A stretch of 64,000 nt of DNA from Rozella allomycis CSF55 (taxonomy: Eukaryota > Rozellomycota): assembly GCA_000442015.1 (NCBI GenBank), contig KE561209.1:493607-557606 (forward strand). The letters run 5' to 3'. Below, piece after piece: positions 1 to 64,000 of this stretch. The number at the start of each line of letters is the position of its first letter. Position 1 is the first letter of the stretch. Below the pieces are notes generated by a model. It had not been told where the DNA came from, did not search any database, and worked only from the letters and a program-made list of their open reading frames with translations. A program made the translations under genes and the position numbers.

Positions 1-1502
1 CCAAGGGTAGTGTACTTGACATTAACCTTCTTTATCACTGGGAAAGATTTCAATGCTTCCATGACCTCTTTTCTTTCTTCGCTCTTTAAATCTTTCAATA
101 GAGTTTGCTTTGTTTCTTTTGGCAGAGAAACAAACTTTGGAATATCTAAGCCTCCTTTGGCGCCACTAATCGTCAATGACAAATCATGAGTAAGAAATGG
201 AAGTTGCCAAAAGCTAATCGTTGGATTAGGAAGAGCTTGAATTATCATTTGCGAAACCGATATCATTGACAATAAACTCTCATGATGTCCTTTAGCCATT
301 GCAATCTTTATCATAGTTGGAAGAAACTTTATGGATTGTTCCAGAACTTTTTGCTGCTCTTCATGAAATTTCTCTGGGACCTCAACCCTGAAAATATGCG
401 CGTAAATTAAAGTATGAACTTTAACAGCTATAGCATTCGTGAATTTACGAGATAATTCGTAATAATATCCGTTTTTATCAGCAAATCTTTGTAAATCACT
501 CATAAGCTTTTATATTTTAACATTATCTCTTACCTCCTTTAGTTCTTCATGATCAGGAGTAATCAACGTTTCAAATTCAGATGCGCCACTGATTGCTTCA
601 ATAATATCACCAGGAATCATAACATCCTCAATTAAATGATAAAATGTTTTCGCGGATTTCCTGTAAACCTTCATTTTGGTGTATTTTTTCGATTTTGACC
701 ACCATTGACCCTGGTTAACAAAACAAGTGGCTTTGTACAATTTTATAAGGCATAAAAACTGCCATCAAGATTCCATACAGAAATAAAACTTTAAATCCAT
801 TTTCCTGAGAAACAACCCATGCTGGAAGCGCGATGCCTAAAGAAAATGCTACATCAAGAGACTGACTATCGCTTACTTTGTTGTCCATCAGGATTTCCAT
901 ATTCTTCCCAGTTTTTACGAATATCTTCATCAGTCAATGCTTGGTAAGCCTTTGAAATTTGAATAAACTTTTCATTTGCTTCATCCTTCAAGTCATCAGA
1001 AACTTTGTCAGGATGCCTTGTCAATCAACATAACATTACGTACCATTGTTGCGACAATTTGTAAAACTTTTTCTTAATTTCAGCAGGGCTGGCAGTCTAT
1101 CTTTGAGGGACGAAAAACATTACCCTGTCAATTTCTAAAATTTTAAAGGGATCATAAAATTGATCAACTACTTCCGTTGTGTGGATCACATAATAAGAAT
1201 AGCCAGCTACTAAAATTGCAATCAAAAGTAACAAGTTCCTTTTGTTGTCGACAGGGGAGATGCTTACCAAACCCAAGTGTTCTCTTTGTTTTTACGACTT
1301 TCCAGATATCTAACTTTTCTTTGCATAGGTGGAAATTTTGAAGCCTTGCTTTTAGTGTCAACTACATTTTCTATGGTCTAAAAGTGATGGGCATACTTTT
1401 TTTAGTGCACAAGGCATAAAGGCGTTGCAAAATAAAAATCACTGATACTGTTAGAGTGAAAAACGCAAACGTTAAACCAGTTTCATCAAACGTGTACTTC
1501 AT
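1..1502 (-). CDS. SEC63: SEC63 ER translocon J-protein (C-terminus off the left edge)
   Basis: Membrane J-domain partner of the Sec61 channel that recruits BiP/Kar2 for post-translational import into the ER. Reading leftward from the ATG at 1500-1502, after splicing, there is an N-terminal TM segment, a short loop and a second TM. A J domain follows with an HPD motif, then the family signature NWEEYG..DG, then GIALPAWVV and a third TM. The Sec63 (Brl) domain begins near QWWSKSKKY and includes ASEF, and runs off position 1. At least seven introns of about 26-29 nt are needed, one between W and H of the QWHPD stretch. The ATG lies 57 bp from the divergent MOD5-like start. Domain order and motifs make the family call secure; only the acidic C-terminal tail is missing. 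Confidence 0.93.
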
Positions 1503-1559
1503 CGAACTGTAAATTTCAGAATGATTGTCAACTTTTGAGGGATATTTCCGTTTTCAGTT

Positions 1560-2638
1560 ATGAGCTGCTTGAATCCATTGGCTATTATTGGTGCTACAGC
1601 AGTCGGAAAATCCAGCATGGCAATAAACGTAGCGAAAATAATAGGGGCTGAAATCATATCGTGTGACAGTGTCCAAGTATCATTCATAGTTTTATAAAAG
1701 ATGGTGTATAGAGATTTAACTATTGGATCTAACAGGGTTGTAAATTACGAAAATGTGCCCCATCACCTAGTAGGGTTTCTAGATCTCGATCAACAATTTT
1801 CTGCTGGTGACTTTTATCGCAGTTGTACACACTTAATAAAAGTAAAAGTTGCCCTAAAACATCACAGGAAATACAATCCAGGAACAAGGTACCTTTGATT
1901 GTTGGCGGCGCCATGTTCTACTTGAAATGGCTTTTTGAAGGCCCTCCCCCAACTCCCTTACCTACCCCGATTAAAATAAGAAAAGAAACAGAAAAATTAA
2001 TAGAAGAAGAAGATAACTGGGATTCAACGTAATGAATTAATGTCGTCGTAAAAGATTTGCTAGGGTTGCAATGATAGATCCTATTTATGCACACACCATT
2101 GGATTCAACAACACTAAAAGGCTATACAGGCCTTTAGAAATATTTAAGATGACTGGAAAAGCAATTTCAGACTATTCTTTGCCAGCCACAAATTCAATTC
2201 GCGAATTGAAAGTACACTGTGTACAACTTCAATTATCTGGGAACACCCTCGTGGACATAATTAACAGGAGGTGTCAAAAGATGATAGAACTGGGTCTTTT
2301 GTCAGTAATAGTTCTTTGATGATTACAAAGTACAGGAAGTGGAAAGATTGATTTCAAAAGGGTACAACCCAAGTAATGCAGAATGGTTCAATTCTATTGG
2401 GTATAAACAGTGTTACAATTATTTCATTCTTGAGGAATCTAAACGAAATTTTGATAAATTGCTTGTTGAATTTCAGAATGCAACAAAGAAATATGCAAAG
2501 CAACAAGAGAGATATTTTAAAAAGAAAATAGATGCATGGTTAATTAAACAGGTGAAATATGATCCTGAAAATAAAAATGAAAACATCTCACAAGAAATCG
2601 TTAACATTTTTCAATCAAATCAAATGAGAAAAATATAA
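1560..2638 (+). CDS. MOD5: tRNA dimethylallyltransferase (i6A37; MiaA/MOD5/TRIT1 family)
   Basis: Transfers the dimethylallyl group of DMAPP to A37 of tRNAs that read UNN codons. The protein opens with a P-loop (GATAVGKSS). It continues with SCDSVQ-MVYRDL, VPHHLVGFLD, the VPLIVGG strand, the RPLEIFKMTGK stretch and GYKQ near the C-terminus, all in family order. Four introns restore one frame: 24 nt after VQ, 26 nt after HLIK, 26 nt inside DST, and 31 nt before EVERL. The C-terminal YAKQQERYFKKK helix is present, but I see no C2H2 zinc finger of the kind many eukaryotic members carry. About 320 residues. A mitochondrial presequence is not obvious. Confidence 0.93.
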
Positions 2639-2717
2639 AATAAAATATGATTAACAGACGTTTATTCTTCTATCTATTTTAAAATTTATCAAAATTTATA
2701 ATTATCGAACTTGATAA

Positions 2718-3965: not shown

Positions 3966-4027
3966 CAGTGGCGTAGTTACTCAAACACTCGCTCAAAATA
4001 TAGATTTTACACAGTTGATCAAATATA

Positions 4028-4644
4028 TTATTTATTTTTCGCACTCTTTGCATTTTTTACAATATGATTGTATATTCTAGCCAATGCTAATATAAGAAAA
4101 TGAAGTTGCATTTACTGACTTCTAAAGTTGTTATTTGCTCACGAAGATAGTACGCATCTGCATCTAACTGTTTGATACTCTTTTCAGCAATAGCTTGCTT
4201 CCCCAATAAGAGATCTTTTGCCTCATTAATTTCGTATTCAACCATGACGTTTGCCTATTTGAGAAAGAATACATAATAGTTACCCCGAGCCACAAACAAA
4301 CTTTATCAGTAACTGGTAAAGTAGCATTAGCATAAAGAGTATCGCTTAGCTCAAACCTAGTTTCTAAGGCCTGGTCTTTGTCCTCGTCTCTCTTTTCAAG
4401 AATGTAATCGATAGCACTAATAGATTTCTTAATTTCAGGAAGTTTGCCGCCTATTTTCATCTTTCTTTGAAGAATGTTAATTTCTGCGTGCTTGATTCTG
4501 TTTAACATTTCATCATAAGACTTCATTGCTTCCTCAGGTGTTTTTCCCTCTTGAAAATATTGCTCAACATTTTCCTGAATATTTAACATAAATATAACTT
4601 ACAAAGAAAGGCGCTTTTGGTATGGTCTCCTGGATGGTAGTCAT
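4028..4644 (-). CDS. PAC10: Prefoldin subunit 3 (VBP1/PAC10)
   Basis: Alpha-type subunit of the hexameric prefoldin chaperone that hands nascent actin and tubulin to CCT. The N-terminal IPKAPFF precedes a long coiled coil, then ETRFELSDTLYANA, the hallmark TDKVCLWLGANVM, and a second coiled coil ending LEVTLARIYN. Three introns (28, 29, 29 nt) are needed: after APFF, inside LG|AN, and before the last exon. About 175 residues, close to the usual family size. It starts 28 bp from the divergent YAF9/GAS41 gene, so the two probably share a promoter. Confidence 0.93.
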
Positions 4645-4672
4645 TTTTCTTTGCAAATTTCTAAAAACGCTC

Positions 4673-5418
4673 ATGGAATTTCAACCAGAGAGAAAAAAGG
4701 TAAATGAATATATATATTTGAAAATGGGGCACTATACTTTACAGACCTATTCTCTATGGGTCAAAAGCGACACCCATAGAAAATCCGGCGGTGGACGGTC
4801 ACACGCATAGGTGGACTATTTTTGTAAGAACAGTGGTTCCAAATGAGGAAGCCGGATCTTTTATCAGAAAAGTAGTTTTTCGACTACATGAGTCATTTAA
4901 TAATCCTGTTAGAAGTACGTCATGAATCCATGCATTACCAAGGCATAGAAAAGGAGCCATTTGAAATCCAAGAAACAGGTAACTTCATCAAAGAAAAAAT
5001 AGAGGATGGGGTGAATTCGACATAAATATCAAAATATATCCTCTTGACCCTACAGAGAAACCAGTTAGTCTTACTTTACCATTAAAACTATTTCCAGGCG
5101 ACGATACAATAACTTTACCAGACTCCACTATATTAAATGAAAGGTAATTCAAAGTCATGTAATTAAAAATGGTACGAAGAGCTAGTTTTTCATGAGCCTA
5201 CGACATTTATGTATCAGATTCTTACAGAAGATTCAACTGAAGATTACTCATCACATTTGCCGAATGAATGTAATTTCTTTTCCATTTAATAATAAGGGAA
5301 GAAAAGGGAAGAGGACGAAATCCAAAACATACGATTAGTGATGAGCGAAGTAGAAAAAGAAATTAAAATTCTTGAACGTAAAAAGGAAGAATTACAAAGT
5401 GAGCTACGTATGCTATAA
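4673..5418 (+). CDS. YAF9: YEATS-domain protein YAF9/GAS41
   Basis: Histone acyl-lysine reader and subunit of SWR1/NuA4-type complexes. The YEATS fold is clear: PILYGS near the N-terminus, DGHTHRWTIFVR, FIRKVVFRLHESF, PFEIQETGWGEFDI, then strands up to the FHEPT segment. The C-terminal helix (SEVEKEIKILERKKEELQ) is the coiled coil typical of Yaf9/GAS41. The DGHTH spelling resembles animal GAS41. The first exon (MEFQPERKK) fits the GAS41 N-terminus, but the junction between about 4,700 and 4,750 does not resolve cleanly into canonical short introns. Start and first intron are therefore tentative; the rest is secure. Confidence 0.85.
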
Positions 5419-20239: not shown

Positions 20240-22263
20240 ATGAGTAGGCATCGTTACGTTAAAAATATGTTGGATGGTAAAACTATTAAATATTTTAAAA
20301 AAGAATATTATGATGACGACGACGATTATGAAGAATTTAGTGACGAGTATGAATTTGAAAAAGTCAAGGAATCAAATCAAAATCATTATTCTCTCGCAGA
20401 TGATTTTGATTTGGATGAATACGAGGAAGATTTAAATTTTGAGATTGAAGAGCTTCAAATAGAAAATGCAATTCAAAAACCACAATCGAAACTGCAAGTG
20501 ATTTCCGAGAAAATTGAAAGAAAGGAAAAGAACAAAACAAGTGATTTCGCTTCTGTATTTTGTAATCAAACAAAAACGAATACTAACAAAAACGAATCTT
20601 ACATTGTTTATGAGGCAGATTTTAAAGAAACAAATTTAAAGAAGCCTGCAATATCAAAGTCCAGAGAATACATATCTTCTTTGCCCTCAAAAAAGGTTCT
20701 ACCTGAAAAATCTTCTCATAAAATTTCTAGAAAACAAATTAATCAATCATCAACAAAAAATAACAATACATTGAATCTCGTTGTAATTGGCCATGTTGAT
20801 CATGGAAAAAGCACGTTAATGGGCCATTTACTTTACCTTCTTGGGCAAGTTAATTCTAAGACTCTAGAAAAGTAGATTATTCAAGCCGTTTAAATAGGTA
20901 CAAGCGTGAATCTCAGAAACTTGGAAAGAATTCATTTGCATTTGCTTGGATTTTAGATGAAACTGAAGAAGAAAGAAATCGGTAATTAAATTTCATGCAG
21001 TTAAAATAATAGAGGTATCACTGTAGATTTCGCAAGAAATGTTCTTAAATTGCCAAATAAGACAATAAATTTGATGGATGCACCAGGCCACAAAGATTAC
21101 GTTCCGAGTATGATACAAGGTGCATCTCAAGTATTATTACTTTACTTTATTGTTCAAGGCTGACTGTGCATTGCTAGTTATCGATTCTTCTCCTGGCGAA
21201 TTCGAGACTGGTTTTGAGGGGAAGGGGCAGATTAAGGAACATTCTATTCTTGTACGAAGTTTAGGAATTCAAAGCATTATTGTCGCGGTAAACAAAATGG
21301 ATAATGTAAAGTGATTAATTGACATTAAAAGATCGGTTGGTCTGAAGACAGGTATTCTTTTGTGGTCTCCAAAATGATCCAGTTTTTAACTGCGTTAGGG
21401 TTTAAAAACGAATGCATTCATTTTGTGCCATGTAGTGGTCTTACAGGAAATAATTTGACAGCTCTAGAGAAAAACCATGTGAACGAATGGTACAAGGGTC
21501 AAACTTTAGCCGATACAATTGGTAAACGCGAGCTATATATTTCATTAGATTCAATAAATCCACCTGATAGGCCAATAAATAAACCTTTAAGAATGTTTGT
21601 CGCGGACATATTCAAGCAATCAGGAAATACTGCCGGCTTGTCTGGCCAAGTTGAATCCGGGTACTTTAGCGTTGGAGATGTAGTAACAATCATGCCTCTT
21701 AAAGAGAACGCAACTATTAAAAGTACAGATTATGATTCGCGCTTTATAGATATTAAAAAACTTGGAACAGACTCGTCAAATGCTCTGGCAGGTGATTACG
21801 TAGATATTCTTGTCAGCGGAATTGATTCGACAAAATTTTCGTAATTGATGTAATATATTACTGACTGTTAGTGTCGGAAACGTTATCTGCTTCAAGGACA
21901 ACTTGATAAAGGCCACAAAAAGATTTAATGCTCAAATCATCACCTTTGATTTGGATGAGCCTTTGTATGTTGGTCATTCAGTAAAGATGAACTCATAATG
22001 ATATGTAGATCGTATTTTATTTCAAAGGAATATCAGAGTCGGGCTATATATCCCAATTAATTAGTTTGACCGATAAAGATGGAAAAAACATCAAGAAAAA
22101 CCCTAAAATGATTCCAAAAAATTCTAATGCAGTTGTTCAAATTACACTGGAAAGGACAGTTCTAATTGATACTTTAATGGATCTGAAAGAAATGAGTCGT
22201 TTCACTTTAAGGTCACAAGGATTTTCCATAGCTGCCGGAATGGTCAATGAAATATTTCAATAA
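20240..22263 (+). CDS. HBS1: HBS1 translational GTPase (ribosome rescue, Dom34/Pelota partner)
   Basis: eRF3-like GTPase that acts with Dom34 on stalled ribosomes. The N-terminus MSRHRYVK followed by a Asp/Glu-rich stretch matches the HBS1 N-terminal domain. The G domain has GHVDHGKST (G1), a switch region with [21 protein letters not shown] (G3), NKMD (G4) and the PCSGLTGNN segment (G5 region). Domains II and III follow, with GYFSVGDVV and the C-terminal [14 protein letters not shown]. Introns of 26, 31 and 27 nt are verified around residues 210-290, with more downstream. About 590 residues, normal for HBS1. Opposite-strand start codons here lie only 15 bp apart. Confidence 0.93.
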
Positions 22264-22334
22264 AGTCGCTATATTAATTGTCATTTTCAAGTTTACAGTT
22301 TACTTCTAGCGTTATAGCTTTACGAAATTTACTG

Positions 22335-30632: not shown

Positions 30633-32844
30633 ATGTCGTCAGATGAGTTAAAAATTCTATTCGGTACATAAATTTGATTACTATTTTATAGCAACTGATA
30701 ATCATATAGGATACTTGGAAAAAGATCCCATCAGAAAAAACGACTCGTTTGAAACTTTTGAGGAAATCCTTCAACTTGCTCATCACCACAAGGTAATGAC
30801 TGAAAATTATTGAAAGAAAGGTTGACCTTTTACTTCTCGGAGGCGATCTCTTTCATGACAATAAGCCATCAAGAAATACTCTATTCCGAGTTTTAGAATT
30901 ATTTAGAAAGTACTGTTGGTATTCTATTATGTCATTACATTATAGGGGTGAAAAAGAATGTAGTTTTCAACTTTTATCAGATCAGCAAATGAATTTCGCG
31001 GCGAAATGCGCAAATCATTTGGATCCTAACCTTAATATATCCATGCCTGCATTTATTATTCATGGCAATCACGATGATCCAACTGGTGATTCAAATTTAT
31101 CTGCACTTCATTTGCTATCAGCTGCTGGATCTTTGAATCTGTTTGGGGGCAACGATCAAATCGATGATATTCAGTCAAATCCAATACTAATACAAAAAGG
31201 ATCAACAAAGCTAGCTCTTTATGGCATTGGAAATATACGAGATGAAAGACTGCATAGAACATTTCAACAAGGAAAAGTGAAATTTGCTAGACCCGTTGAA
31301 TCAACAGATGAATGGTTCAATTTACTAGTTTTCCATCAAAACAGGTGAAAGAAAATATTATATTACAACAGAGTGCAACATGGACCTACAAATTACATTC
31401 CAGAGACTTTCCTTCCAGATTTCTTAGATTTGGTGTTGTGGGGTCACGAACATGATTCCAATCCTTTGCCAGAAAAGAATGAATTGAAAGAATTTTTTGT
31501 TATTCAGCCAGGATCCTCGACTATAACTTCGCTTAGTGAAGGAGAGGCACTTCCAAAGTAAAAGAATCAAGTTTTAAGAATTAAAGACATGTGGGATTAC
31601 TATCGATCAAACAGAGAAGTTTTAGTTGGCATCCTATTCCACTCAAGACTGTAAGGCCTTTTATCATGGACACAGTTTCTCTAAGTTCCGTTGATGGTTT
31701 ACGACCCTCAGATCTGAAAGGAATCGAAACTTTCCTAAAGATTAAAGTAATTTATTTTTTCACAAACATGAATAGATTGATGAAATGATTCAAGAAAGCT
31801 ACACAGTAAGAAGGGAGCGTTTATCAGACCCCAAAAATCCCTTGTTGATTCCTCAGAACGGCAATGTATTACCATTGATTCGTTTGAAAGTTGATTATTC
31901 TGGTGATTATACAACTTTTAATCCTCTTCGTTTCGGTCAAAATTTTGTTGACAAGGCAGCTAATCCACGAGACTTGCTTGTATTTTTTAGAAAGAGACAA
32001 AAGGGCCAATCAAAAAAGATTGTTCAAGACATTCAAGTAGAAATTCCAGAACAAAATGAAGAACTAAAAATTGAAGATTTAATATCAGATTTCCTAGCCG
32101 TAGAGTCATTAGAAATGCTACCCCAGAATGAACTAGGTGATGCGGTTAGAACATTCGTTGACAAGGAAGAAAAAGATTCAATTCACAAGTAATTCCTTTC
32201 TTTGTTTATAATAAAGTTATGTTGAGAAAATTGTAAAGGATATGATTACAAAGTTCAACTTGAAAGACACCATAACCTTGGATTTCATAAAAGAAACTGT
32301 ACATCAATTAAACTATTGTCATCAAGGTTTCTAGAGAAAAGGCTATAAAGGAATCAATTAGAGTCACAAGCAATGATTCTCTTGTAAGTCCATCAATTAA
32401 TACAAAGGAACCACAGAAACAACCAGCATTTTCTGACGAGAGTTCCAATGATGCCGATATTCCCGTTTCAAATGCAAACGTAAAAAGAAAAGGCATCTCA
32501 TATTCAGGTTGAATCAGATGACGTTATATTAGTCAGTGAAAGTGAGTCTGTGAAAGAGTCGATTTCAAAGATAAATGCAAAGAAAACAACAGCAAAGTCA
32601 AAGCCTAAACCTTCACAGCCAAAATCTACAGCGTATTAATTCTTTTCTTTTGTTTTTTAGGCCTAAGAGAGTATCTTCGAAACCCACAGTCAAAACATCA
32701 AAGAAATTGAAGCAAAATACTTTATCTTTTGTTCCTATGACTTCAAGATCACAGTCAGTAAAACAATTACTATTAAATCAAAAGGATTCAGAGAGCGATG
32801 ATGATAATATTACTTATGCTAAATTCACATCTAGAAATAAATAA
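30633..32844 (+). CDS. MRE11: MRE11 double-strand-break repair nuclease
   Basis: Nuclease of the MRN complex. All phosphoesterase motifs are visible: ATDNHIGYLEKD (with Asn where most relatives have an extra acidic/Ile spelling, DxH kept), LLLGGDLFHDNKPS, IHGNHDDPTGD, LVFHQNR, and LWGHEHD. The capping domain follows with QPGSSTITSLSEGEA, VDYSGDYTTFNPLRFGQ and FVDKANPRD-like residues. The tail is Lys/Ser-rich with a short acidic end (DSESDDD). Many 25-30-nt introns interrupt the frame, the first directly after residue 10 (ILF). About 640 residues, normal length. Its stop overlaps no other gene; the orphan starts 62 bp downstream. Confidence 0.93.
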
Positions 32845-34864: not shown

Positions 34865-35608
34865 TTATTTAGCTTGAAAATTTCCAGACCTCATGGCTTT
34901 CTCCAATTGTTGTACCTCTTCCAATGACTTGGCGTTTGTTATAGCATTCTATAAAGGACAAGAAAACCAACTTACCTTAAAGCTTTCTTCCTCCAATTTG
35001 CGTTTCTTTGTGTATTTATCTAATCCGTCGCCAGGAATAAATGTTGCACTTTTGACTTCCTTACCACCAAAAACCTTTGCAGCCTCTTCTCTCTCCTTTG
35101 TATTGATTTTTCTAAAATCCAAAAGCTTAATATTTGGCATGTTATGTGCAATAAATAATCTGTAGTTTGGTCTTTTTGTAACCGGATTTCCTATTAAACT
35201 GAGACAGCGAAGGGTTTTAACTGAGAAAAGTGGCTCCAAGTCATTTAATTCTTGAATAAAGTTATTATTCATAATCAAGTTTTGTATATTGACCAAAGTT
35301 TTACCAAGGTTTGGTTCAATAGACATAACCCGATTGTTATTCAAATATATAGACTTAAGACGGTGCATAAGAGGAAAATTTTCGAGGCGTTTAATATCGT
35401 TATCTGAAAAGTCTATCGTATCGTGTTGATCCTAGAGTTAACCTTGACAAACATCTGTACTCTGGTGACAGCTAAATTTTCGATACTTGGTATTTTATTT
35501 CCTATTGTTGACAAAAGATAATATTTTACCTCGCAAGTCAAGTTCCATGTCATTAACAGCATTTAGAAAGGAAGCAGAGTACTCTATAACATCAACTGTT
35601 AAACGCAT
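34865..35608 (-). CDS. LEA1: U2 snRNP A' protein (LEA1/SNRPA1)
   Basis: Leucine-rich-repeat protein that binds U2 snRNA stem-loop IV together with B''. The N-terminus ends LRGNKIPSIENL, then DTIDFSDNDIKRLENFP, LKSIYLNNNRV, IQNLIMNNNFIQEL and LSLIGNPVTKRPNYRLF. The LRR cap NIKLLDFRKINTKEREEA follows, then the C-terminal NAITNAKSLEEVQQLEKAM helix. Introns of 29 and 27 nt, plus a final 27-nt intron after EESFK, are needed. About 220 residues. It shows that a U2-type branch-site machinery exists despite introns of about 27 nt. Confidence 0.92.
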
Positions 35609-38474: not shown

Positions 38475-38785
38475 CTATTTCTTCGGAAGTTCAAACTTTT
38501 GTATTGTTTCCCAGACCATCAGGATATTCTCATACACTGCGTTGGAAGCTATTCTCAACATTCTAACAGTGTTGGATTTAAATTTTCTATCGGTGTATAT
38601 AGTTGTTTAAAATTACATATGGAGTACATTGTTGTTAGTTGACATTCCTCGTTGAATCTCATTGGTCTTCAACTCTTTATCTACATTTACCACTTTACAA
38701 ACTATATCGGCATGTTCACTTTTTTCAAAAGGTATCTCGATATTTCTATCTTGGCAAAATTAAAGAAAAGTTACAATTCAAACAT
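38475..38785 (-). CDS. PCC1: PCC1/LAGE3 subunit of the KEOPS (t6A37) complex
   Basis: Dimerisation subunit of KEOPS, which installs threonylcarbamoyl on A37 of ANN-decoding tRNAs. It appears only after splicing two introns: 29 nt after MFEL, and 30 nt after VLHI. The joined protein of about 83 residues reads NIEIPFEKSEHADIVCK, VNVDKELKTNEI, then FKSNTVRMLRIASNAVYENI and MVWETIQKF, following the Pcc1 pattern of Glu-Ile-Pro-Phe start and RMLR core. It ends 34 bp from the convergent SMARCAL1-like stop. Confidence 0.85.
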
Positions 38786-40146: not shown

Positions 40147-41038
<892 letters not shown>

Positions 41039-44406: not shown

Positions 44407-45785
<1,379 letters not shown>

Positions 45786-50338: not shown

Positions 50339-50940
50339 TTATATGGCCGCTCTGAATGCTGCTGTTCCAGCCCCTCCCAGTGTTTTGCTGTTTAATTTAG
50401 ACATTGCTGATTACCTGGATGTGGGATCTTCTTTTTTCAACAAAGCAATCAAATAAAATATTCCTGTAATGGACAAAAACACAGCGGAAACTACAAATTC
50501 TGAAAGTTGTACGACCCAATACAATACTGCACAAGCAATGTAGAAAATGGTTCTATATAAGGGTTTGGACGCAGTCTGCAAAAAGTTTCGTCTATTAAAC
50601 AATAATCAATTAGATTACAGTGGACCACCTTCACGAAAACATTTCATAAACAATGGAATTTCTAAACTAAGAACAATGACTCCTAGAACACTATTAATCA
50701 GCCAACAAATACATTACACAGAGACCACAGCAAATACTATAGCACCTGCTTTACTGAAATTGAATAAATTGGCTATCCCAGTGGCAAATATAACTATCAT
50801 GCATAAATCCAATGTATTTTACTGATTCCGGTTATGATAGCAGCCCTAATTAATTAAATAAATAATTCTTATTACCACTGACCGTAAACTGCAAACTTTC
50901 CTGACCTAACTTCCTCCTTGAACGAATCCCAAACACTCAT
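50339..50940 (-). CDS. TVP18: TVP18 Golgi membrane protein
   Basis: Small four-TM protein of Tlg2-containing late-Golgi vesicles. After splicing four introns (27-30 nt), the start MSVWDSFKEEVRSGKFAVYGQW and the segments FATGIANLFNFS, IVLSLEIPLFMKCF, FLQTASKPLYRTIFYIACAV, and the end SSKTLGGAGTAAF match TVP18 in order; the SKTLGG motif is diagnostic. About 155 residues. It lies 41 bp from the convergent PEX22-like stop. It is largely fungal in distribution, which supports a fungal affinity. Confidence 0.85.
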
Positions 50941-52159: not shown

Positions 52160-52160
52160 T

Positions 52161-53300: not shown

Positions 53301-53390
53301 TACCCGGAATTGAGGGCCTGGCATTATTGAAATTTCCAAAAGGTAAATAATTCCCTTTTTAGATCCCAAAAAAGGATTAAACAAGTCAAT

Positions 53391-55375
53391 TTATTCTTTC
53401 GTGTTTCCTTGTTGCATGTTTTGAATATATTCCATAAATTCCTGCTCTGCCTGCTGAATAGCTTCAAGAATAGAATTTCCTTTCAGAAAATCATTGGGAT
53501 TCGCTGATTGCGGCTTTTTCTGAGCAGCCTTAAGCCTTTTGTCTCGAGCTGCTGTCTCTAAAGTTTTTTCTCTTTTCGTTTCACGTTCAAGCATCTAATA
53601 TTGAAGATGTTTATTCAATTACCTGTGAAAATATATTCTTCTCATCTCTTTGGATTTTTGAAAGTCCGGATGATATTTCTAATAAAGAAGTGGTACCATC
53701 TCGTGAACCAACAGCAATCATGCTCCCTCGATCTTGAATCCTTATACATTGAATGGGCGAATCACAAACCTATAAAGTCGGTATTTTCAAAGTACTTGAA
53801 TGGAAAGGGTAGGTTCAGTTTGTTTGAAAAGATAATCCCACACGTCTACTGTACCATCGTCTTTTGATGTGAAGAATACAGCAGGCCTTGTAGGAGACCA
53901 GCATCCATCTGTTAAATTATATGAGTGATAATTGGTAGACATTATTGGAGATCGAATATCTTCAGTCCAGATCTAAACTTTTTGGGGCATATTTCGCTTA
54001 CCTTAGCAGACCAATCGCCAACAGTTAAAAAGTTTCTAACAAAAAAGGGATTTCTCTTCAATTCAAAAGTCCCTTAAAAATTACCTGTAGCGCTGTAATA
54101 GGACTGTGATGACCCGGGAATGTATGCATAATCCTTTCATTCGGGTTTTTGGCCTTTCTATTGCACATGTACACAGAGCCATTCTCTGCACCAACCATAA
54201 ATTTAGTTGGCTTTTATCAATATTTTAAATTGCTTACCATTGTAGTTTCAAAATCTAGAATAGTTCCACCGACGGCAATCCCGTTCTTTTCAGGATCAAC
54301 AATCATTGCTTCAGTTGGTTCGGATAGCTTTCGAATATCCCACCAAAGAACTTGTCCATCTGTAGAAGAAGAAAAAAATTCCGCCCCTTTATTGATAAAT
54401 TTATCAGCCTTCTACCCGTTTTTGATTGGATCCACGTCACACAATATACTGGATCGCGATGACTTTTTTCTATCAGTGAAGAATCCACGGGGTATGAGCC
54501 TTTCCTTGTATCCCAAAAGGCTATTTATGAAATAAGCATAAGGTTACCTACAACTCCAGAATGTAGACCTCCAACAAGAATGTGCGGATCTTTAGGATTA
54601 TATTTGAGCGACACTACTGCAGATTCAGATAATAAAGTTTGATCAGGTGAATTTGGATTCTCGATATCCCATATATATGACTCTGTAGGCATGTCATTTG
54701 GTTGTCCTTGAAAGTCCACACATGAATAAGCGGTGGCTAGTTTGTTGCCATCTTCAGGATACCAAGACAAACACGTAGTAGACCTCTTAACTTTACTTGG
54801 ATCCCTATTTAAACCATTTTTAGTTGATACCGAAATACATTAAGTATTTTCGCTTGAGGCTTCTCCAGCGTCCAATCTTCTTCTTTCTCGACAAAATATT
54901 CTTCATAAATATCAATAGCATTGTTTTGTTTTATACACTCTTCAACAATCTATTGCTTAAATAGTAACAAATATTACCTAGTTTTGATTGAAGAATAGAA
55001 TTACATCACCTAAACTAACCACTGATCTCAAAAATTCTTCATCTTTTTCCACCTTTTTACGATATCTAATGGTATGCTCTGCATCGCTGGAATCCACATC
55101 TTTTGGCCATCCACCTTCTCGGTGCAATATACCGCGATTCGCTACTGCGTAAGACTCTGTATTGACCTTTGACATTAAAGGCATATTATTACATCATGTT
55201 CTGACATTTCCTGTGCACATTGAACTTCATGGTGGAGCGGATTTTTTATAGAATAGTTTGATAAATATGAATGATCAGGTGGGTAATCGTATAGTAAATT
55301 TGGTTCTGTCAAAGAAAAGTTAATTTGTCTCCCGAATTGACGCCTCTGTTTTTGATAAACGTACACAACTTCCAT
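53391..55375 (-). CDS. DNAI2: Axonemal outer-arm dynein intermediate chain (DNAI2/IC2)
   Basis: WD40 intermediate chain of outer-arm dynein. [99 protein letters not shown] and the C-terminal [10 protein letters not shown] match DNAI2 throughout. Several short introns interrupt it. About 560 residues. Requires a motile flagellum, so the organism has a flagellated stage. Same-strand neighbour of the LENG8-like gene, which ends 117 bp upstream of its start. Duplicated at 59,091-61,075. Confidence 0.93.
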
Positions 55376-55492
55376 GATTGCGTGAAATTCTAATAAACAA
55401 ACCCCGGTGTATTAAAATTACAAAATTGTTTACAGCATTGTAAATATTAGAGATTAATCATATTTAAATATAATTTATTAATGGGTTATGCA

Positions 55493-56953
55493 TTATATTT
55501 GGCCCTTAATGTCTACAATTGAAAACTCGCTAAATTTGCTCATCAGTGAAGGTAATGAACTTTTCGTATCCAATAGCTTGTAATTTTCTACTAAAATAAG
55601 ATCTAACTCTTGCAAAAACTTTAGACATTCTGAAGTGGACTCGAATGCCAATACTTTACATATGTAGCTCACGTCTATATTCGGTCGATATCTGGATGTA
55701 AAAATAACTATATAATTACGCTTTGCAGATACTAACCATTGCCTTGAACCTTTCTCTAGGCATAAAGTGATCCATTAGGTAAACACCCATATTTGGCGCC
55801 TCGTTGTACAATTGTGATAGAGAGTAATAATCGCTAATAGATATAGCTGATTTTACTTTGAGAGCGTGACTAACAGCTAAATTTTCTTTTTGAACTGGTT
55901 TTAGTTCTGCCACCAATGCGTTTATCTCTAACTTTCAAAATTGGCGCCAAATTTACCTCGCCTATTTTTTGTGTGCAGAAGATAAAGCAATCGATACGCG
56001 AGGAATTCCATGTCGTTTCCTTTGATTGAATGGATATTGTAAAGCTGTTTTAGCTGCGTTTGGCATTGGTTGTATTCACCAAGGTCTCCTTTCTCCAAAG
56101 CTATTCTCGCATGAATTTCGTAAACTTGGACAGTAAATTCGTTTTTGATTCGCTGCACCGTTAAATCTTGCCGTAGAGATTTAAACTGATCACAAATGTA
56201 CCCATAGTCACATTCTTCCCGCCATTTCTTTTTCAGAAACGCCAACGATTTCTTTAGAACGGCTAAAGGCCTGACTGTAGACGGATCGGGTGCCTTTCTA
56301 TTGTGTATTTGAGATTTACTGACGTTAACCGAAGGTATTTCTTTTCCAAATCTTGACTTGTGCCGACGATCGTGTAAATATCCCAATCAATGACTTCGTT
56401 CATCTTTTTTAATTTGACTAGAGTATTCTACTTGTTCTTTAACAGGAGCTATTCTCGAATTCCGTATTCTCATTTCATCCAATCTTTCTTGTTCGTCTTT
56501 CTGAAATCGTTTTGCCCTTTCCGCCTTTCTTTGTTCCTCTTCGTTTTGTTTTACACTAAAAGTTAAATTAAATGAATTATCTGAAAAACTCTATTAAAAG
56601 GATTTTAGATTTACTTTTTCCTTTTCTTTAGCATGTCTTGCATGGAATTAGTTTTGTTTTCCACATTTTCTATTTGATTCTTTGCTTTATTTTTATTCTT
56701 CTTTTTCTTTTTGCTTTCGTTTCGCTCTGGATATTGTCCAACATTTGGTATAGGAAAAATAGTCCAGTCCTTTAAATGTAATTCGCCGGATTTCGTTGCG
56801 TCTCCAATAATTTTCTTTAATACTTTTTCCATTTCGTCTTTTTGTTGATTAACTTTGCAGGATTCGAAGCATCTTTCCACAAATAGTCTAAAATAAAATT
56901 TGAAAGACCTCCTACTTTAAAGTGGGCGGAAATTTGGACCCAGCATTTGACTC
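55493..56953 (-). CDS. LENG8/THP3-like SAC3-domain protein (copy A, 5' end cut by N)
   Basis: SAC3/GANP-domain protein of mRNA processing and export. [61 protein letters not shown] and [20 protein letters not shown] match LENG8/THP3. A 26-nt intron falls inside TS|AP. The N-terminal part ([19 protein letters not shown] and a Lys-rich stretch) is present, but the first exon is missing because the copy stops at the N at 56,954. The complete version is at 61,193-62,879. Confidence 0.85.
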
Positions 56954-56954
56954 N

Positions 56955-57859
56955 AAATCATAGGGATATATCTCTTTCACTAAACCGAATAGAAAAATTA
57001 CTACAACAGGATCGATCTCTTTGGAAGTTGGATGAAATTAAGAACCAGTTGAAGACAGTAGAATTAGATATTAATGAGCTATCAGATACAATTAATATCC
57101 TTTTTGTCTGGAAAATATCTTTGATTTGAGGTTTTTCTTAACTTATCAACGGGTAGTAGAATCGAACCCCTCAAAGTTTAACATCTTGAAAACAGAAATA
57201 GAGAAAAGAAAAAAGTTGGTCCAACAAACTCTAGAGAAAATTGCAGTAAGCTCCAATATTAGTATTCATTTGAAACATAGGCAGCTGATTATGATCATAC
57301 CACCTAGCAATGCCCCATCATTGATGAGTCCGAGTGTCAGGCAGTCGCCTACTACTTTTACAAAAGATTATAGATCGGTATAATTTACACTATATCTTCT
57401 TTAGGCATTATTAAACACTAATGTACCCAAGGATCCTCTACTTAACTCTCCAACAATAAATTCGGCAGACTTCATTCAAACTCAACAACAGCAACAGCAG
57501 GTAATATGAATTACATAGACATAACAGGAAATATTAGCAAGACAAGATGACCAACTTGATGTAGTTCTCGGAGCTATTTCAACAATAAAGGATCAAGGCT
57601 ACACGATTCATACTGAATTGTCTGATCAGCAAGGGTATGCAAACACGAAATAATCAACAGGCTATTAAACAAATTAGATATTCAAGTAGACTCAACTCAA
57701 GGTAGATTGAACACGGCTATGAATCGATTGGGAAAAATATACAATGACACAACTGGTAAGTATATGTGGAACCTTTAATGAGAAAAACATTCCACTTTTT
57801 GTATTATAATTTTAATATTTATCCTGATAGCTTTGCTCTTAGCTATTATATATATTTAG
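56955..57859 (+). pseudogene. Syntaxin-6 copy B, lacks exon 1 (assembly duplicate)
   Basis: Identical to 51,255-52,159 but begins inside intron 1, immediately after the N. The EDPF start exon is absent. Best read as the second representation of one locus, not as a true pseudogene. Confidence 0.8.
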
Positions 57860-57860
57860 T

Positions 57861-59000
57861 TTATTTATTGTTTAATAAATTCAATCGATAATGAGACAAA
57901 CGGAGGAAGTCTTGATCTCTTATTGGGTCTGCTATCTCTGACACTTTTTCATATATATCTTTTGCAGTTTTAAGCATACCAGCATGCTAAAATAGACTTT
58001 GTAACCACATTACCTCTTCAATCATAGCCAAGTTGCACAGCACTAGCGGTTTCATTCGATCATTAGCTGCTGAGTACGCCCTTTGGCCTAAAATGCGGGC
58101 CTCTCTGAACTTTCCTAGATATGAATATGTGGCAGCCGCATTATTGTATAGTATGGGGAGTCGTGGATGATGAGGGTCTTCTTGAAGTAAAAATTCTACA
58201 GCCTTTCTATAAACACCCTAATTTTAACAAAAATCAAATTGTACCAAAGCTAAAGCATAATCGCCTTTATCTAACCAAAGTTCGCCTGCACATTCCATGA
58301 TGGCAGCCAATTGGAGCTTTTTACTGTCTGGGATCTTTAGAATGGAATATTTTTCATCCCTTCGCTTGATCTTTCTCTTGAATCTTTCCAATGTCTTTTT
58401 AGGCCACGGAAAGCTTTCTTCGTCTGGTAGTTCTAGGAGTGTCAACATTGCGTTGTTGAAACTTTCTTCGGCCTTTCCAATTTGGCGAGACGATTTATAT
58501 ACTTGACCCATCCGTTGATGAATAGCGGCTTTTTCACGCACCAGATTTTCATAATTATCATTTCTTTGATCTATCATTTTTAGGACATTTTGATAACACG
58601 ATAAAGCCTTTTCTTCATCTTTCAGTAAATATTGATAGACTTGGGCTAAATTGAGATCTATTTTTTCAGTTAGCATCTAGAAACAACATGGCTCACTTTT
58701 TACATGATTGTCGCCTTTAATTCTACTACAGAGATCTCTGGCGTGTAATAGATATTTTTCTATTTCAGAGGCATCCTTTTCATCACTATATAATGCTTTA
58801 AGCAAAGGTATCCGGACGCTAGGGGGATATTCCCAAACCAATTGGTATTGTCTATAATACATGAATGCACCCAGAGCAGATGATAAAAGCAATATATGAA
58901 AAAGTTTTCTGTAAGCGGGCTTAGAATAATTCAAAAGATTTACAGTCGTATTGTATTTACGATGGTGGTTTAATTTGTAGTATAATGGCGACAATTTCAT
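57861..59000 (-). CDS. TPR-repeat membrane protein, duplicate copy
   Basis: Identical to 52,161-53,300 (offset 5,700). Probably the same locus placed twice by the assembler. Confidence 0.6.
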
Positions 59001-59090
59001 TACCCGGAATTGAGGGCCTGGCATTATTGAAATTTCCAAAAGGTAAATAATTCCCTTTTTAGATCCCAAAAAAGGATTAAACAAGTCAAT

Positions 59091-61075
59091 TTATTCTTTC
59101 GTGTTTCCTTGTTGCATGTTTTGAATATATTCCATAAATTCCTGCTCTGCCTGCTGAATAGCTTCAAGAATAGAATTTCCTTTCAGAAAATCATTGGGAT
59201 TCGCTGATTGCGGCTTTTTCTGAGCAGCCTTAAGCCTTTTGTCTCGAGCTGCTGTCTCTAAAGTTTTTTCTCTTTTCGTTTCACGTTCAAGCATCTAATA
59301 TTGAAGATGTTTATTCAATTACCTGTGAAAATATATTCTTCTCATCTCTTTGGATTTTTGAAAGTCCGGATGATATTTCTAATAAAGAAGTGGTACCATC
59401 TCGTGAACCAACAGCAATCATGCTCCCTCGATCTTGAATCCTTATACATTGAATGGGCGAATCACAAACCTATAAAGTCGGTATTTTCAAAGTACTTGAA
59501 TGGAAAGGGTAGGTTCAGTTTGTTTGAAAAGATAATCCCACACGTCTACTGTACCATCGTCTTTTGATGTGAAGAATACAGCAGGCCTTGTAGGAGACCA
59601 GCATCCATCTGTTAAATTATATGAGTGATAATTGGTAGACATTATTGGAGATCGAATATCTTCAGTCCAGATCTAAACTTTTTGGGGCATATTTCGCTTA
59701 CCTTAGCAGACCAATCGCCAACAGTTAAAAAGTTTCTAACAAAAAAGGGATTTCTCTTCAATTCAAAAGTCCCTTAAAAATTACCTGTAGCGCTGTAATA
59801 GGACTGTGATGACCCGGGAATGTATGCATAATCCTTTCATTCGGGTTTTTGGCCTTTCTATTGCACATGTACACAGAGCCATTCTCTGCACCAACCATAA
59901 ATTTAGTTGGCTTTTATCAATATTTTAAATTGCTTACCATTGTAGTTTCAAAATCTAGAATAGTTCCACCGACGGCAATCCCGTTCTTTTCAGGATCAAC
60001 AATCATTGCTTCAGTTGGTTCGGATAGCTTTCGAATATCCCACCAAAGAACTTGTCCATCTGTAGAAGAAGAAAAAAATTCCGCCCCTTTATTGATAAAT
60101 TTATCAGCCTTCTACCCGTTTTTGATTGGATCCACGTCACACAATATACTGGATCGCGATGACTTTTTTCTATCAGTGAAGAATCCACGGGGTATGAGCC
60201 TTTCCTTGTATCCCAAAAGGCTATTTATGAAATAAGCATAAGGTTACCTACAACTCCAGAATGTAGACCTCCAACAAGAATGTGCGGATCTTTAGGATTA
60301 TATTTGAGCGACACTACTGCAGATTCAGATAATAAAGTTTGATCAGGTGAATTTGGATTCTCGATATCCCATATATATGACTCTGTAGGCATGTCATTTG
60401 GTTGTCCTTGAAAGTCCACACATGAATAAGCGGTGGCTAGTTTGTTGCCATCTTCAGGATACCAAGACAAACACGTAGTAGACCTCTTAACTTTACTTGG
60501 ATCCCTATTTAAACCATTTTTAGTTGATACCGAAATACATTAAGTATTTTCGCTTGAGGCTTCTCCAGCGTCCAATCTTCTTCTTTCTCGACAAAATATT
60601 CTTCATAAATATCAATAGCATTGTTTTGTTTTATACACTCTTCAACAATCTATTGCTTAAATAGTAACAAATATTACCTAGTTTTGATTGAAGAATAGAA
60701 TTACATCACCTAAACTAACCACTGATCTCAAAAATTCTTCATCTTTTTCCACCTTTTTACGATATCTAATGGTATGCTCTGCATCGCTGGAATCCACATC
60801 TTTTGGCCATCCACCTTCTCGGTGCAATATACCGCGATTCGCTACTGCGTAAGACTCTGTATTGACCTTTGACATTAAAGGCATATTATTACATCATGTT
60901 CTGACATTTCCTGTGCACATTGAACTTCATGGTGGAGCGGATTTTTTATAGAATAGTTTGATAAATATGAATGATCAGGTGGGTAATCGTATAGTAAATT
61001 TGGTTCTGTCAAAGAAAAGTTAATTTGTCTCCCGAATTGACGCCTCTGTTTTTGATAAACGTACACAACTTCCAT
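59091..61075 (-). CDS. DNAI2: DNAI2, duplicate copy
   Basis: Identical to 53,391-55,375 (offset 5,700). Probably the same locus placed twice. Confidence 0.85.
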
Positions 61076-61192
61076 GATTGCGTGAAATTCTAATAAACAA
61101 ACCCCGGTGTATTAAAATTACAAAATTGTTTACAGCATTGTAAATATTAGAGATTAATCATATTTAAATATAATTTATTAATGGGTTATGCA

Positions 61193-62879
61193 TTATATTT
61201 GGCCCTTAATGTCTACAATTGAAAACTCGCTAAATTTGCTCATCAGTGAAGGTAATGAACTTTTCGTATCCAATAGCTTGTAATTTTCTACTAAAATAAG
61301 ATCTAACTCTTGCAAAAACTTTAGACATTCTGAAGTGGACTCGAATGCCAATACTTTACATATGTAGCTCACGTCTATATTCGGTCGATATCTGGATGTA
61401 AAAATAACTATATAATTACGCTTTGCAGATACTAACCATTGCCTTGAACCTTTCTCTAGGCATAAAGTGATCCATTAGGTAAACACCCATATTTGGCGCC
61501 TCGTTGTACAATTGTGATAGAGAGTAATAATCGCTAATAGATATAGCTGATTTTACTTTGAGAGCGTGACTAACAGCTAAATTTTCTTTTTGAACTGGTT
61601 TTAGTTCTGCCACCAATGCGTTTATCTCTAACTTTCAAAATTGGCGCCAAATTTACCTCGCCTATTTTTTGTGTGCAGAAGATAAAGCAATCGATACGCG
61701 AGGAATTCCATGTCGTTTCCTTTGATTGAATGGATATTGTAAAGCTGTTTTAGCTGCGTTTGGCATTGGTTGTATTCACCAAGGTCTCCTTTCTCCAAAG
61801 CTATTCTCGCATGAATTTCGTAAACTTGGACAGTAAATTCGTTTTTGATTCGCTGCACCGTTAAATCTTGCCGTAGAGATTTAAACTGATCACAAATGTA
61901 CCCATAGTCACATTCTTCCCGCCATTTCTTTTTCAGAAACGCCAACGATTTCTTTAGAACGGCTAAAGGCCTGACTGTAGACGGATCGGGTGCCTTTCTA
62001 TTGTGTATTTGAGATTTACTGACGTTAACCGAAGGTATTTCTTTTCCAAATCTTGACTTGTGCCGACGATCGTGTAAATATCCCAATCAATGACTTCGTT
62101 CATCTTTTTTAATTTGACTAGAGTATTCTACTTGTTCTTTAACAGGAGCTATTCTCGAATTCCGTATTCTCATTTCATCCAATCTTTCTTGTTCGTCTTT
62201 CTGAAATCGTTTTGCCCTTTCCGCCTTTCTTTGTTCCTCTTCGTTTTGTTTTACACTAAAAGTTAAATTAAATGAATTATCTGAAAAACTCTATTAAAAG
62301 GATTTTAGATTTACTTTTTCCTTTTCTTTAGCATGTCTTGCATGGAATTAGTTTTGTTTTCCACATTTTCTATTTGATTCTTTGCTTTATTTTTATTCTT
62401 CTTTTTCTTTTTGCTTTCGTTTCGCTCTGGATATTGTCCAACATTTGGTATAGGAAAAATAGTCCAGTCCTTTAAATGTAATTCGCCGGATTTCGTTGCG
62501 TCTCCAATAATTTTCTTTAATACTTTTTCCATTTCGTCTTTTTGTTGATTAACTTTGCAGGATTCGAAGCATCTTTCCACAAATAGTCTAAAATAAAATT
62601 TGAAAGACCTCCTACTTTAAAGTGGGCGGAAATTTGGACCCAGCATTTGACTCTTTCGAAGCGCTTTTTCCACTATTTTTTTAAATATACACCGCATTAC
62701 GGTTTTGTAGCTTCTGAGTATGATTTACCAGCGGGTGCAGATTTTGATGAAATCAGGCCATTATTATGCCCTGGAGTTGGTATCGGCGCAGGAATATTGT
62801 AATTTGATGTTATTGTATTAGGCCTGACAGCTTTTGGAAGCGGTGGTGGTGCATAACTATACTGAAACGGTTTCATCAC
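61193..62879 (-). CDS. LENG8/THP3-like SAC3-domain protein (complete copy)
   Basis: Same protein as at 55,493-56,953 but with its first exon: [15 protein letters not shown] and a Pro-rich stretch to YSEATKP. A 28-nt intron, a short linker exon (PPTLK), and another 28-nt intron lead into [10 protein letters not shown]. About 500 residues. The N-terminal Pro-rich region and the RCF..C segment match LENG8 better than nuclear-pore Sac3. It probably works in mRNA processing or export. Starts 280 bp from the divergent coiled-coil gene. Confidence 0.85.
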
Positions 62880-63159
62880 TTTCAGTCGGAAATTTCAAGC
62901 TATTTTACATAAATCTTTAAAAAAAGATGTCGCTTTTTTATTATATTTGAAACAATCTTATTTTATTTATAAATAGAACTTCATATTAATTTATACATTA
63001 ATATATGACCTATGATTGCACTGACTAAAGGTAACAAAGAAAATGCCGGCAAAATCTGACATAAAGATTAAAAACATTCATTAAAAGTCATATTTATTTA
63101 ATTATAGTGAAATCGCATCTTGCTTTAAACCGCAACCAATTTTTTGTGAAATTCTAAAA
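62880..63159. promoter_or_regulatory. Divergent intergenic region
   Basis: 280 bp of AT-rich DNA between the LENG8-like start and the coiled-coil gene start. No gene supported. Homopolymeric A/T tracts are frequent. Confidence 0.4.
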
Positions 63160-64000
63160 ATGCTTAGGGGTCAGGATGCGTTCTCTTTACTGAATTCCCT
63201 CAAAAAGCTCGAATATTTTTCACAGGACACTGATATATATAAAAATAATGTTCCGAATCTCCTTGAAGACGCCATCGTGAACAAAAAACCAGAGAGTCCT
63301 AGACTTGACAAAGATAGACATCTCTTTAATTTAGAACTAAAATATGAGTCTCTTTTAAATAGGAACGCGGAGCTAGAAAAATTGATTCAAATAATGAATG
63401 AATCTCAACAGCAAAAACAACAGGAATATGTTAAATTGCAAAGTGAATGCAAAATACTGAAATCAGAAAAGGAGAAATTAATTTCAAAGGAGGGACAAAC
63501 TGAAAATACCTTAAACCAACTAAAAGTAAGCAACATTCGATATTTCAAGCTAGGACGATTTAAAAAAAGCAAAACTTGAAATAGAACGCCATAAAGAAGA
63601 AAATTCAGATCTAAAGAAACTACTAATGTACTTTTAATTATTAATTATTTGTAGAAATGAAGAACTAGCACATGAAAAACTCAGAATACACTTGGAGGAG
63701 TTAGATTTATACAAAAAGAGATGTGAAGAACTCTTTAGAGAAAATTATGAATTAAAAATAAAGTTTGACAAACTTAATCGTTCCAGGTCTTCCAATGAAT
63801 ACGGAAAACACTTAAAGCTTCAACCTGAACCGACAACATTGGACCAGAGAGTAAAAAGCCAAACTGTTTCTACAAATGAAAATAAAGAAAATAATAATAT
63901 GGAAACAGAAAGTGATTCAAGCAAAAAGCAAGTAAAGGCAAAAACCTATGACTTGTCGGACATTCCATTGACTGAAATTAAGGAACAGCTAAAGGAGACA
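63160..64000 (+). CDS. Coiled-coil protein, runs off the right edge
   Basis: Starts MLRGQDAFSLLNSLKKLEYF. From about residue 50 a long heptad-rich coiled coil extends (LNRNAELEKLIQIMNES, KSEKEKLISKEG), continued through 28-nt and 27-nt introns into KKAKLEIERHKEENSDL and EELAHEKLRIHLEELDLYK. An Asn/Glu/Ser-rich linker follows, then the edge. No domain outside the coiled coil is seen. Could be a cytoskeletal, centrosomal or trafficking tether; unassigned. Confidence 0.65.

Follow-up and report, generated by a model that had tools for sequence, protein, structure and literature searches.

How can a spliceosome choose a branch adenosine in introns of about 26 to 30 nt that carry no recognizable branch word? 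This question is raised by a 64,000-nucleotide window (bases 493607-557606 of contig C191, GenBank KE561209.1) from the genome of Rozella allomycis CSF55, a parasite belonging to the fungal phylum Rozellomycota, in which ordinary eukaryotic genes (SEC63, prefoldin, phosphodiesterase, HBS1, MRE11, U2A', aspartate aminotransferase, axonemal dynein intermediate chain, and others) are interrupted by ultrashort introns. The best explanation, and on the sequence evidence a probable one, is that these are real miniature introns in which geometry places the branch at position +23, counted from the first intron base, that the first AG at or beyond +26 serves as the 3' splice site, and that longer gaps in at least three conserved genes are tandem rows of such units.

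Gene models and intron lengths

The material analysed comprised 264 kb of C191 (the window and 200 kb upstream of it) from an assembly of 9.97 Mb in 213 contigs, plus short loci on other contigs. Genes were modelled with a simple, custom-written gene finder trained on those 264 kb, and every intron discussed here is predicted, on the basis of sequence and homology. The first training round, which had a flat length prior, placed 148 of 408 introns at 26-29 nt, and the settled model placed 415 of 624 there (264 kb). Within the window the final models hold 189 introns on both strands, 178 at 26-31 nt and 169 at 26-29 nt. This raw count is inflated by a stretch of 5,699 bases that is repeated exactly in tandem (51255-56953 and 56955-62653, an offset of 5,700, the copies being separated by one N at 56954). 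The repeat doubles four gene models and could have arisen in the assembly of the single-contig build. With the second copy excluded there are 164 introns, 153 of them at 26-31 nt. Donors among these are GTA in 157 and GTAA in 115, and acceptors are TAG in 80, AAG in 51, CAG in 23, and GAG in 10, in agreement with the original prediction of uniformly ultrashort introns with GTA, mostly GTAA, donors and TAG, AAG, or CAG acceptors. Intron density is 2.87 per kb of modelled coding sequence; a density of 2.53 per kb is given in Table 1 of PMC8476143.

Three further sets of introns bear on these models. A minimal model was given no more than the GT and AG dinucleotides, coding statistics, and a length distribution that was flat over 12-120 nt. 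In homology-guided splicing, homologue protein profiles were aligned to the DNA and any GT..AG gap of 12-600 nt was allowed at equal cost, so that GT-AG was demanded by the alignment itself and length was not. The last set consisted of 17 loci on other contigs, none of which had been used for training.

An adenine at a fixed distance from the 5' splice site

When the introns are aligned from their 5' ends, an adenine column appears at +23, for which the gene finder had no term when the signal was first measured. The frequency of A at this position is.89,.67,.71, and.72 in introns of 26, 27, 28, and 29 nt, respectively, and.71 in those of 30 nt (n = 24), compared with about.35 elsewhere. Among introns of at least 27 nt, 184 of 268 carry it, against 97.0 in 500 interior shuffles (standard deviation [sd] 7.8, maximum 120). 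The minimal-model set, built from GT..AG only, gives 65 of 93 against 33.7 (sd 4.4, maximum 49, 2000 shuffles), and the set defined by homology gives 18 of 23. On the other contigs an A stands at +23 in 50 of 76 introns of 27-31 nt, where eleven other positions have 17-28, and in 27 of 29 introns of 26 nt. As a single special column, +23 anchored at the 5' end has a likelihood gain of 59.0 nats, followed by +21 with 8.2, while the best column anchored at the 3' end reaches 8.0; the constant distance from the 3' splice site that marks the branch A of Stentor is thus not what is found here. T is raised at +21 (.50), which matches the general branch word, where a T stands two bases before the A. 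We infer that the +23 adenine is probably the branch adenosine, and its position suggests that what sets the branch is the distance to the 5' splice site and not the sequence.

The alternative that survives best is a soft window, in which any A within about +20 to +25 could branch and +23 would be commonest as the best placed, with no strict ruler. The A+T-rich filling of these introns nearly always supplies an adenosine, 94 of 361 introns have no A at +23 (45 of these have one at +24 and 27 at +22), and A reaches.53 at +24 in 27-nt introns. A window of this kind is hard to reconcile with the neighbouring columns, since the frequency of A is.74 at +23 but shows no rise at +22 (.39) and little at +24 (.43), and the column likelihoods at +22 and +24 are 1.7 and 3.9 nats against 59.0. 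We consider the soft window unlikely, though it keeps a real chance of being correct.

The introns that lack the +23 adenine also count against a fixed ruler as such, and several other results weigh on the same side. In the 27-nt class of the minimal model, A is more frequent at +24 (.69) than at +23 (.55; n = 29). The coding tables of that model derive from our own trained models, and on the other-contig loci it placed 11 of 29 introns at 26-33 nt, 8 of them with A at +23. The GUAGUA stretch of U2 and SF1 are both intact, as if sequence recognition were still used. Pseudo-introns in exons that have A at +23 show no clear avoidance: the sense strand has 54, where other spacings average 78.0 (sd 13.8), but a comparable dip is present on the antisense strand (54 against 69.7), and an earlier run gave the same picture. 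Finally, the branch role of the +23 adenine is read from position counts and sequence.

The 3' splice site and a proposed mechanism

The 3' end of the introns follows a simple rule. In 394 of 407 introns of 24-33 nt, the modelled 3' splice site is the first AG with its G at position +26 or beyond; if AGs are counted from +22 the rule holds for 344 of the 407, and if they are counted from +28, for 187. An AG at +26 or later is skipped 5 times in 350 chances, against 13.1 expected from upstream density, while AGs before +23 are freely ignored, 159 of 361 introns carrying one in +7 to +22. With a branch at +23, intron length would be 23 plus a short distance to the next AG, which would account for the sharp lower edge of the distribution at 26 nt.

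This arrangement also bears on a second alternative, in which the +23 adenine would be a fixed contact with a 5'-anchored part of the spliceosome and the branch would be chosen elsewhere. A constant distance does not by itself name the role of the adenine, and to that extent the idea has merit. The adenine, however, is always followed by the AG at a short distance (in 285 of 298 models with A at +23, the 3' splice-site G lies 3-7 nt downstream of it), no other interior column stands out, and the T two bases upstream fits the general branch word. A contact without branching is accordingly an improbable reading of the column, distinctly more so than the soft window.

Under the preferred explanation, that of a branch at +23 set by geometry, the 5' splice site would be held by U1 and then by U6, and the U2-bound branch region would be joined to it by a very short linker. 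Geometry, and not base-pairing strength, would then decide which adenosine reaches the active site, whatever its neighbours, and the branching adenosine would be the A found 22 nt beyond the first base of the intron. The 3' end would be the next AG from +26 on, giving lengths of 23 plus 3 to 7 nt, and longer gaps would be removed unit after unit, which would amount to recursive splicing through exons of zero length. A stronger version of this proposal holds that the Rozella spliceosome measures the branch and no longer reads its sequence, and that longer stretches can be removed only as serial units; for this version we see the chances as evenly divided. If it is true, U2 base pairing and SF1 binding would be secondary to a fixed distance between the 5' splice site and the branch.

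Reality of the short introns

The length peak also appears when no length preference is built in. The minimal model placed 126 of 257 introns at 26-29 nt, and with decoy dinucleotides in place of GT and AG the corresponding numbers were 7 of 182 (GA/TG), 4 of 148 (CT/AC), 14 of 206 (AG/GT), and 10 of 191 (TG/GA). Homology-guided splicing of HBS1, the dynein intermediate chain, and SEC63 yielded 25 introns, 23 of them at 26-31 nt, one of 15 nt, and one of 55 nt. The spliced U2A', aminotransferase, and MRE11 proteins, compared with solved structures, are gapless (by reading) within 5 residues at 3, 6, and 6 aligned junctions. These six genes are as follows.

20240..22263, +, HBS1; 97% identical to public protein P0001 of Rozella allomycis; spliced alignment to five homologues, flat length 12-600 nt
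20872-20897 (26 nt), 20982-21012 (31), 21131-21158 (28), 21306-21331 (26), 21522-21548 (27), 21723-21749 (27, doubtful), 21841-21871 (31), 21981-22008 (28), +, homology-guided introns of HBS1
53391..55375, -, axonemal dynein intermediate chain (DNAI2-like); homology-guided introns of 26, 55, 26, 27, 29, 27, 29, 29, 26, and 28 nt
1..1657, -, SEC63, the 3' part lying beyond the window start
1507-1532 (26 nt), 1371-1396 (26), 1239-1267 (29), 1097-1123 (27), 1017-1043 (27), 849-876 (28), 711-738 (28), 507-533 (27), -, introns of SEC63 in the window
34865..35608, -, U2A', a protein of the U2 small nuclear ribonucleoprotein; introns 35502-35529 (28 nt), 35432-35460 (29), 34949-34975 (27); PDB match, E 6.3e-58
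30633..32844, +, MRE11; 11 introns of 27-29 nt; PDB match, E 3.9e-142
44407..45785, +, aspartate aminotransferase; introns of 30, 29, 27, 27, 28, and 26 nt; PDB match, E 3.6e-138; Pfam Aminotran_1_2

The gapless junctions lie at residues 26, 40, and 192 of U2A' (3 of 3 in the PDB alignment), at residues 51, 95, 130, 168, 253, and 308 of the aminotransferase (6 of 6), and at residues 10, 44, 76, 209, 271, and 325 in the well-aligned part of MRE11. In SEC63, homology-guided splicing agrees with the models at four of the five in-window sites that it covers, the fifth being read as 507-521 (15 nt) in place of 507-533; the 26-29 nt originally given for this gene are confirmed inside the window. The HBS1 lengths matched in part, as 26, 31, and 27 nt had been named and the homology-guided series runs 26, 31, 28, 26, 27, 27, 31, and 28, with the second 27-nt intron (21723-21749) doubtful because P0001 keeps that stretch as coding. 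The homologues used for the DNAI2-like gene are 52-62% identical to it; the gene has a 90% match to another Rozella allomycis public protein and an exact copy at 59091-61075.

A count of GTA..AG spacings over the whole window, made with no gene models, has a TAG peak at 27-29 nt (46, 36, and 35 against 14-20 expected) and little peak for other acceptors, and is too blunt an instrument to carry an argument. A separate class of long introns was considered and dropped. Most introns longer than 34 nt in the first models fail, and a 161-nt case in DNAI2 turned out to be two short introns around an exon. Several of the modelled introns of 36-61 nt contain N or coding-like sequence, and in the window a few of 37-61 nt are unlikely to be right.

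Errors of this sort give some substance to a third alternative, in which gene-model or assembly effects produce short pseudo-introns and the +23 column. All of the introns are predicted, a trained acceptor model could favour an A near the 3' end, and some models are certainly wrong, as with the exon hidden in the long DNAI2 intron and with a 30-nt stretch of HBS1 (21432-21461), an intron in the first round, which P0001 and the homologues keep as coding. Yet the length peak and the +23 column persist both with GT..AG alone and with homology alone, they recur on other contigs, the decoys have no peak, and the column is measured from the 5' end, to which the acceptor model is blind. We regard an artefact as very improbable. 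On sequence and homology, the original observation of uniformly short introns is confirmed. Judged jointly with the account of branch choice given above, it is likely that they are true spliceosomal introns of the major (U2-type) class that have shrunk to about 26-30 nt.

Absent sequence signals and the splicing machinery

If the introns belong to the major class, a branch word able to pair with the GUAGUA of U2 might be expected in them. In a tabulation of 367 introns, all of which would break the reading frame if retained, no consensus word was found: CTRAY occurs in 17 of 367 introns against 23.6 expected from shuffles, and TACTAAC in 0 of 367. In the same introns, stretches of five or six pyrimidines occur about as often as expected by chance, and G at +5 is present in 23% of introns only. 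The idea that such introns leave almost no room for a branch site and polypyrimidine tract is thus correct insofar as neither a branch consensus nor an enriched tract is seen, and needs amending insofar as about three-quarters of the introns hold a position-locked adenine. Use of GT donors and AG acceptors is above chance in the decoy and homology controls. The missing branch word does not exclude the introns from the U2 type, because many accepted U2-type introns of other short-intron lineages lack one too, according to PMC2483917. Short length, a GT(A) donor, the absence of a branch signature, and fairly high density, by which the lineages with degenerate signals are grouped (PMC2483917), are all found in Rozella.

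The components that would recognize such introns look ordinary. One gene each was found for the U1, U2, and U6 small nuclear RNAs (snRNAs), with the ACUUACCU, GUAGUA, and ACAGAGA stretches intact, although the U1 score of 69.0 bits is just under the gathering score of 69.5. SF1 is present with SF1-HH, KH, and zinc knuckle domains, as are a U2AF65-like protein, Cwc25, and Isy1. Cwc25 starts MGGGDLNLKKSWHP and Isy1 starts MARNREKA, both of which we take to be canonical, judging by the human proteins. With a U2A' gene in the window itself (34865-35608) and canonical stretches in single U1, U2, and U6 genes, the view that U2-type recognition works on these short introns gains support.

Minor-class (U12-type) introns were rejected as an assignment, the donors being GTAA, GTAT, GTAC, and GTAG with no conserved interior word of the RTATCCTT/TTCCTTRAY kind, and a scan of the 264 kb for RTATCCTT gave no clear U12-type intron. 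A U12 snRNA candidate does exist at positions 1501-1633 of locus L040 (C191:364863-364995, +), scoring 36.4 bits against a gathering score of 53; its GUAAGGA and GCCUACUUUGC stretches match the model, so that a minor spliceosome may coexist and a few U12-type introns may exist.

Longer gaps as probable tandem introns

In three conserved genes homology sets a gap that is two or three times the usual length.

54950..55004, -, 55-nt gap in the DNAI2-like gene; a 27-nt unit (54978-55004) abuts a 28-nt unit (54950-54977); duplicate at 60650-60704
C191:490927-490986, +, 60-nt gap in CCT3; 30 + 30 nt
C191:492518-492597, -, 80-nt gap in PDHB; 26 + 27 + 27 nt

All three gaps split into abutting GTA..AG units separated by zero-length exons, with AG|GTAA at the junction, and an A stands at +23 in 5 of the 7 units. 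For the DNAI2-like gene, where homology fixes the 55 nt, the division into two units is the one drawn by the gene models. Random intron-like strings split in this way with a frequency of 0.0023 for the DNAI2 55-mer, 0.0017 for CCT3, and 0 of 200,000 for PDHB. Comparison of PDHB and CCT3 with solved structures shows no gap at the tandem points; the CCT3 model is faulty elsewhere, two short exons near residues 95-105 aligning poorly. A fourth candidate (27 + 36 nt), in a long gene of unassigned identity, is less regular. A point against this reading is that a blind scan for paired units with A at +23 in both found 1, where shuffles gave 0-2; because it did no better than shuffles, the evidence for tandem introns is that of the gaps fixed by homology. 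From these gaps we infer that the longer gaps in at least three conserved genes are probably rows of abutting unit-length introns, which would be removed stepwise. In Drosophila recursive splicing, which subdivides very long introns, a 5' splice site likewise begins right where a 3' splice site ends. The AG|GTAA junctions in DNAI2, CCT3, and PDHB resemble it, but here the units are 26-30 nt long and the gaps 55-80 nt.

Uniform length and several abutting introns would suit an insertion mechanism, but descent of the introns from one introner-like element, with the +23 adenine as a sequence relic, is scarcely credible, since no interior column besides +23 (and weakly +21) is shared and the units of one array look unlike by eye.

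Paramecium avoids introns that are a multiple of three in length (3n) and contain no stop codon, an avoidance that is not seen in Rozella. Stopless introns make up 59 of 155 at 27, 30, and 33 nt, compared with 40 of 100, 38 of 88, and 27 of 68 at 26, 28, and 29 nt. Translational control through stopless 3n introns as in Paramecium was therefore set aside for lack of depletion, with the proviso that the gene finder may itself miss stopless 3n introns.

Comparison with other short-intron lineages

Lengths of this order had been placed near the lower limit known outside ciliates and nucleomorphs, a comparison that proves too narrow. Type B introns of Trichomonas measure 23-25 nt (PMC12316389), those of Encephalitozoon 22-76 nt (PMC3629993), and dicyemids form a further short-intron group, as a class (PMC2483917). 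Trichomonas vaginalis type B introns are uniformly short like those of Rozella, but there are only 24 of them and a conserved branch motif of the CTAA type lies close to their 3' end (PMC12316389). Encephalitozoon cuniculi, a microsporidian, also has short introns, and Rozella is described as a sister lineage of Microsporidia in PMC8476143; the introns of Rozella, in contrast, are many and without a motif.

Two ciliates also resemble Rozella. Paramecium (median 24-25 nt) shares with it a similar length, GT(A) donor, A+T-richness, lack of a branch word, fairly high density, and U2-type machinery (PMC2483917, PMC12862383), and in P. tetraurelia ctrayw occurs in 3.55% of introns and the donor is GT(A) (PMC2483917). 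Rozella differs in being a fungus and in the adenine locked at +23, which was measured here on Rozella introns. The introns of Stentor coeruleus (15-16 nt) are similar in having no strong branch consensus, a near-fixed putative branch A, and canonical U1, U2, and U6 (PMC9505925). That A is the 10th base of 15 or the 11th of 16, constant from the 3' end (PMC9505925), whereas in Rozella the position is constant from the 5' end over lengths of 26-30 nt. Stentor Cwc25 is without the GGG plug and the Isy1 N-terminus is not conserved (PMC9505925), unlike the MGGGDLNLKKSWHP and MARNREKA starts in Rozella. If the +23 adenine is measured as proposed, the Rozella arrangement would correspond to that of Stentor, but in a fungus and anchored at the 5' end instead of the 3' end.

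Introns that are short and carry no branch word are already known, and short-intron lineages have been described as lacking a branch signature (PMC2483917). What appears to be new is the 5'-locked adenosine and its fungal setting; in the open-licence literature, of which coverage was partial, we found no stated intron lengths and no fixed distance from 5' splice site to branch for Rozella. A hidden branch signature emerges here once introns are aligned from the 5' end, and it separates branch choice by sequence from branch choice by geometry, which are usually mixed. The rule is a concrete one, in a fungus with apparently ordinary SF1, U2AF65-like protein, Cwc25, and Isy1; it gives a reason for the 26-nt floor, and it offers a one-line test for introns of Paramecium, Bigelowiella, and dicyemids. 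If correct, it may also explain how the branch is defined in other lineages without branch words.

Other genes and features of the window

Four smaller genes of the window carry the same kind of intron.

4028..4674, -, prefoldin subunit; introns of 28, 29, and 29 nt; Pfam Prefoldin
38475..38785, -, PCC1; introns 38746-38774 (29 nt) and 38587-38616 (30); Pfam Pcc1, E 4.2e-21
50339..50940, -, TVP18; introns of 30, 29, 27, 27, and 27 nt; Pfam Cg6151-P, E 8.6e-14 (first-round model)
1701..2638, +, MOD5-like tRNA isopentenyltransferase; introns of 26, 26, 26, and a doubtful 56 nt; Pfam IPPT, E 1.9e-46

For prefoldin (28, 29, 29) and PCC1 (29, 30) the lengths first proposed were recovered identically, PCC1 in the first models, as its score is below the cut of the final set; the 27-30 nt proposed for TVP18 were likewise recovered. 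Of the 24, 26, 26, and 31 nt proposed for the MOD5-like gene, the 26-nt introns were found again on the + strand, while those of 24 and 31 nt are neither confirmed nor refuted, the 24-nt intron being out of reach because the model begins downstream of it.

Two gaps that end in TG, not AG, restore conserved protein by eye, one in a crotonase gene (40349-40374, -, 26 nt) and one in MOD5 (about 1677-1703, +, 27 nt). Each has an A at +23, and they could be non-AG acceptors or assembly errors. Among GT..TG candidates, 4 of 10 fall at 26-30 nt, all 4 with A at +23; TT, TC, and GT acceptors gave 5, 5, and 4, and no claim is made.

Public gene models miss or keep some of the short introns: P0001 keeps the 27-nt HBS1 intron, and P0121 drops an exon between two. 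A rule that combines A at +23 with the first AG from +26 could improve the annotation of early fungi. P0001 also fuses HBS1 with a neighbouring LisH/CTLH (GID8-like) gene (20240-23155), an indication that the gene models of a compact genome need care. A piece of a Copia-type retrotransposon at 10986-13017 (+) unites Pol_BBD, GAG-pre-integrase, integrase core, and retroviral SH3-like domains in one model, in which two 26-nt "introns" (11445-11470 and 12365-12390) may be spurious.

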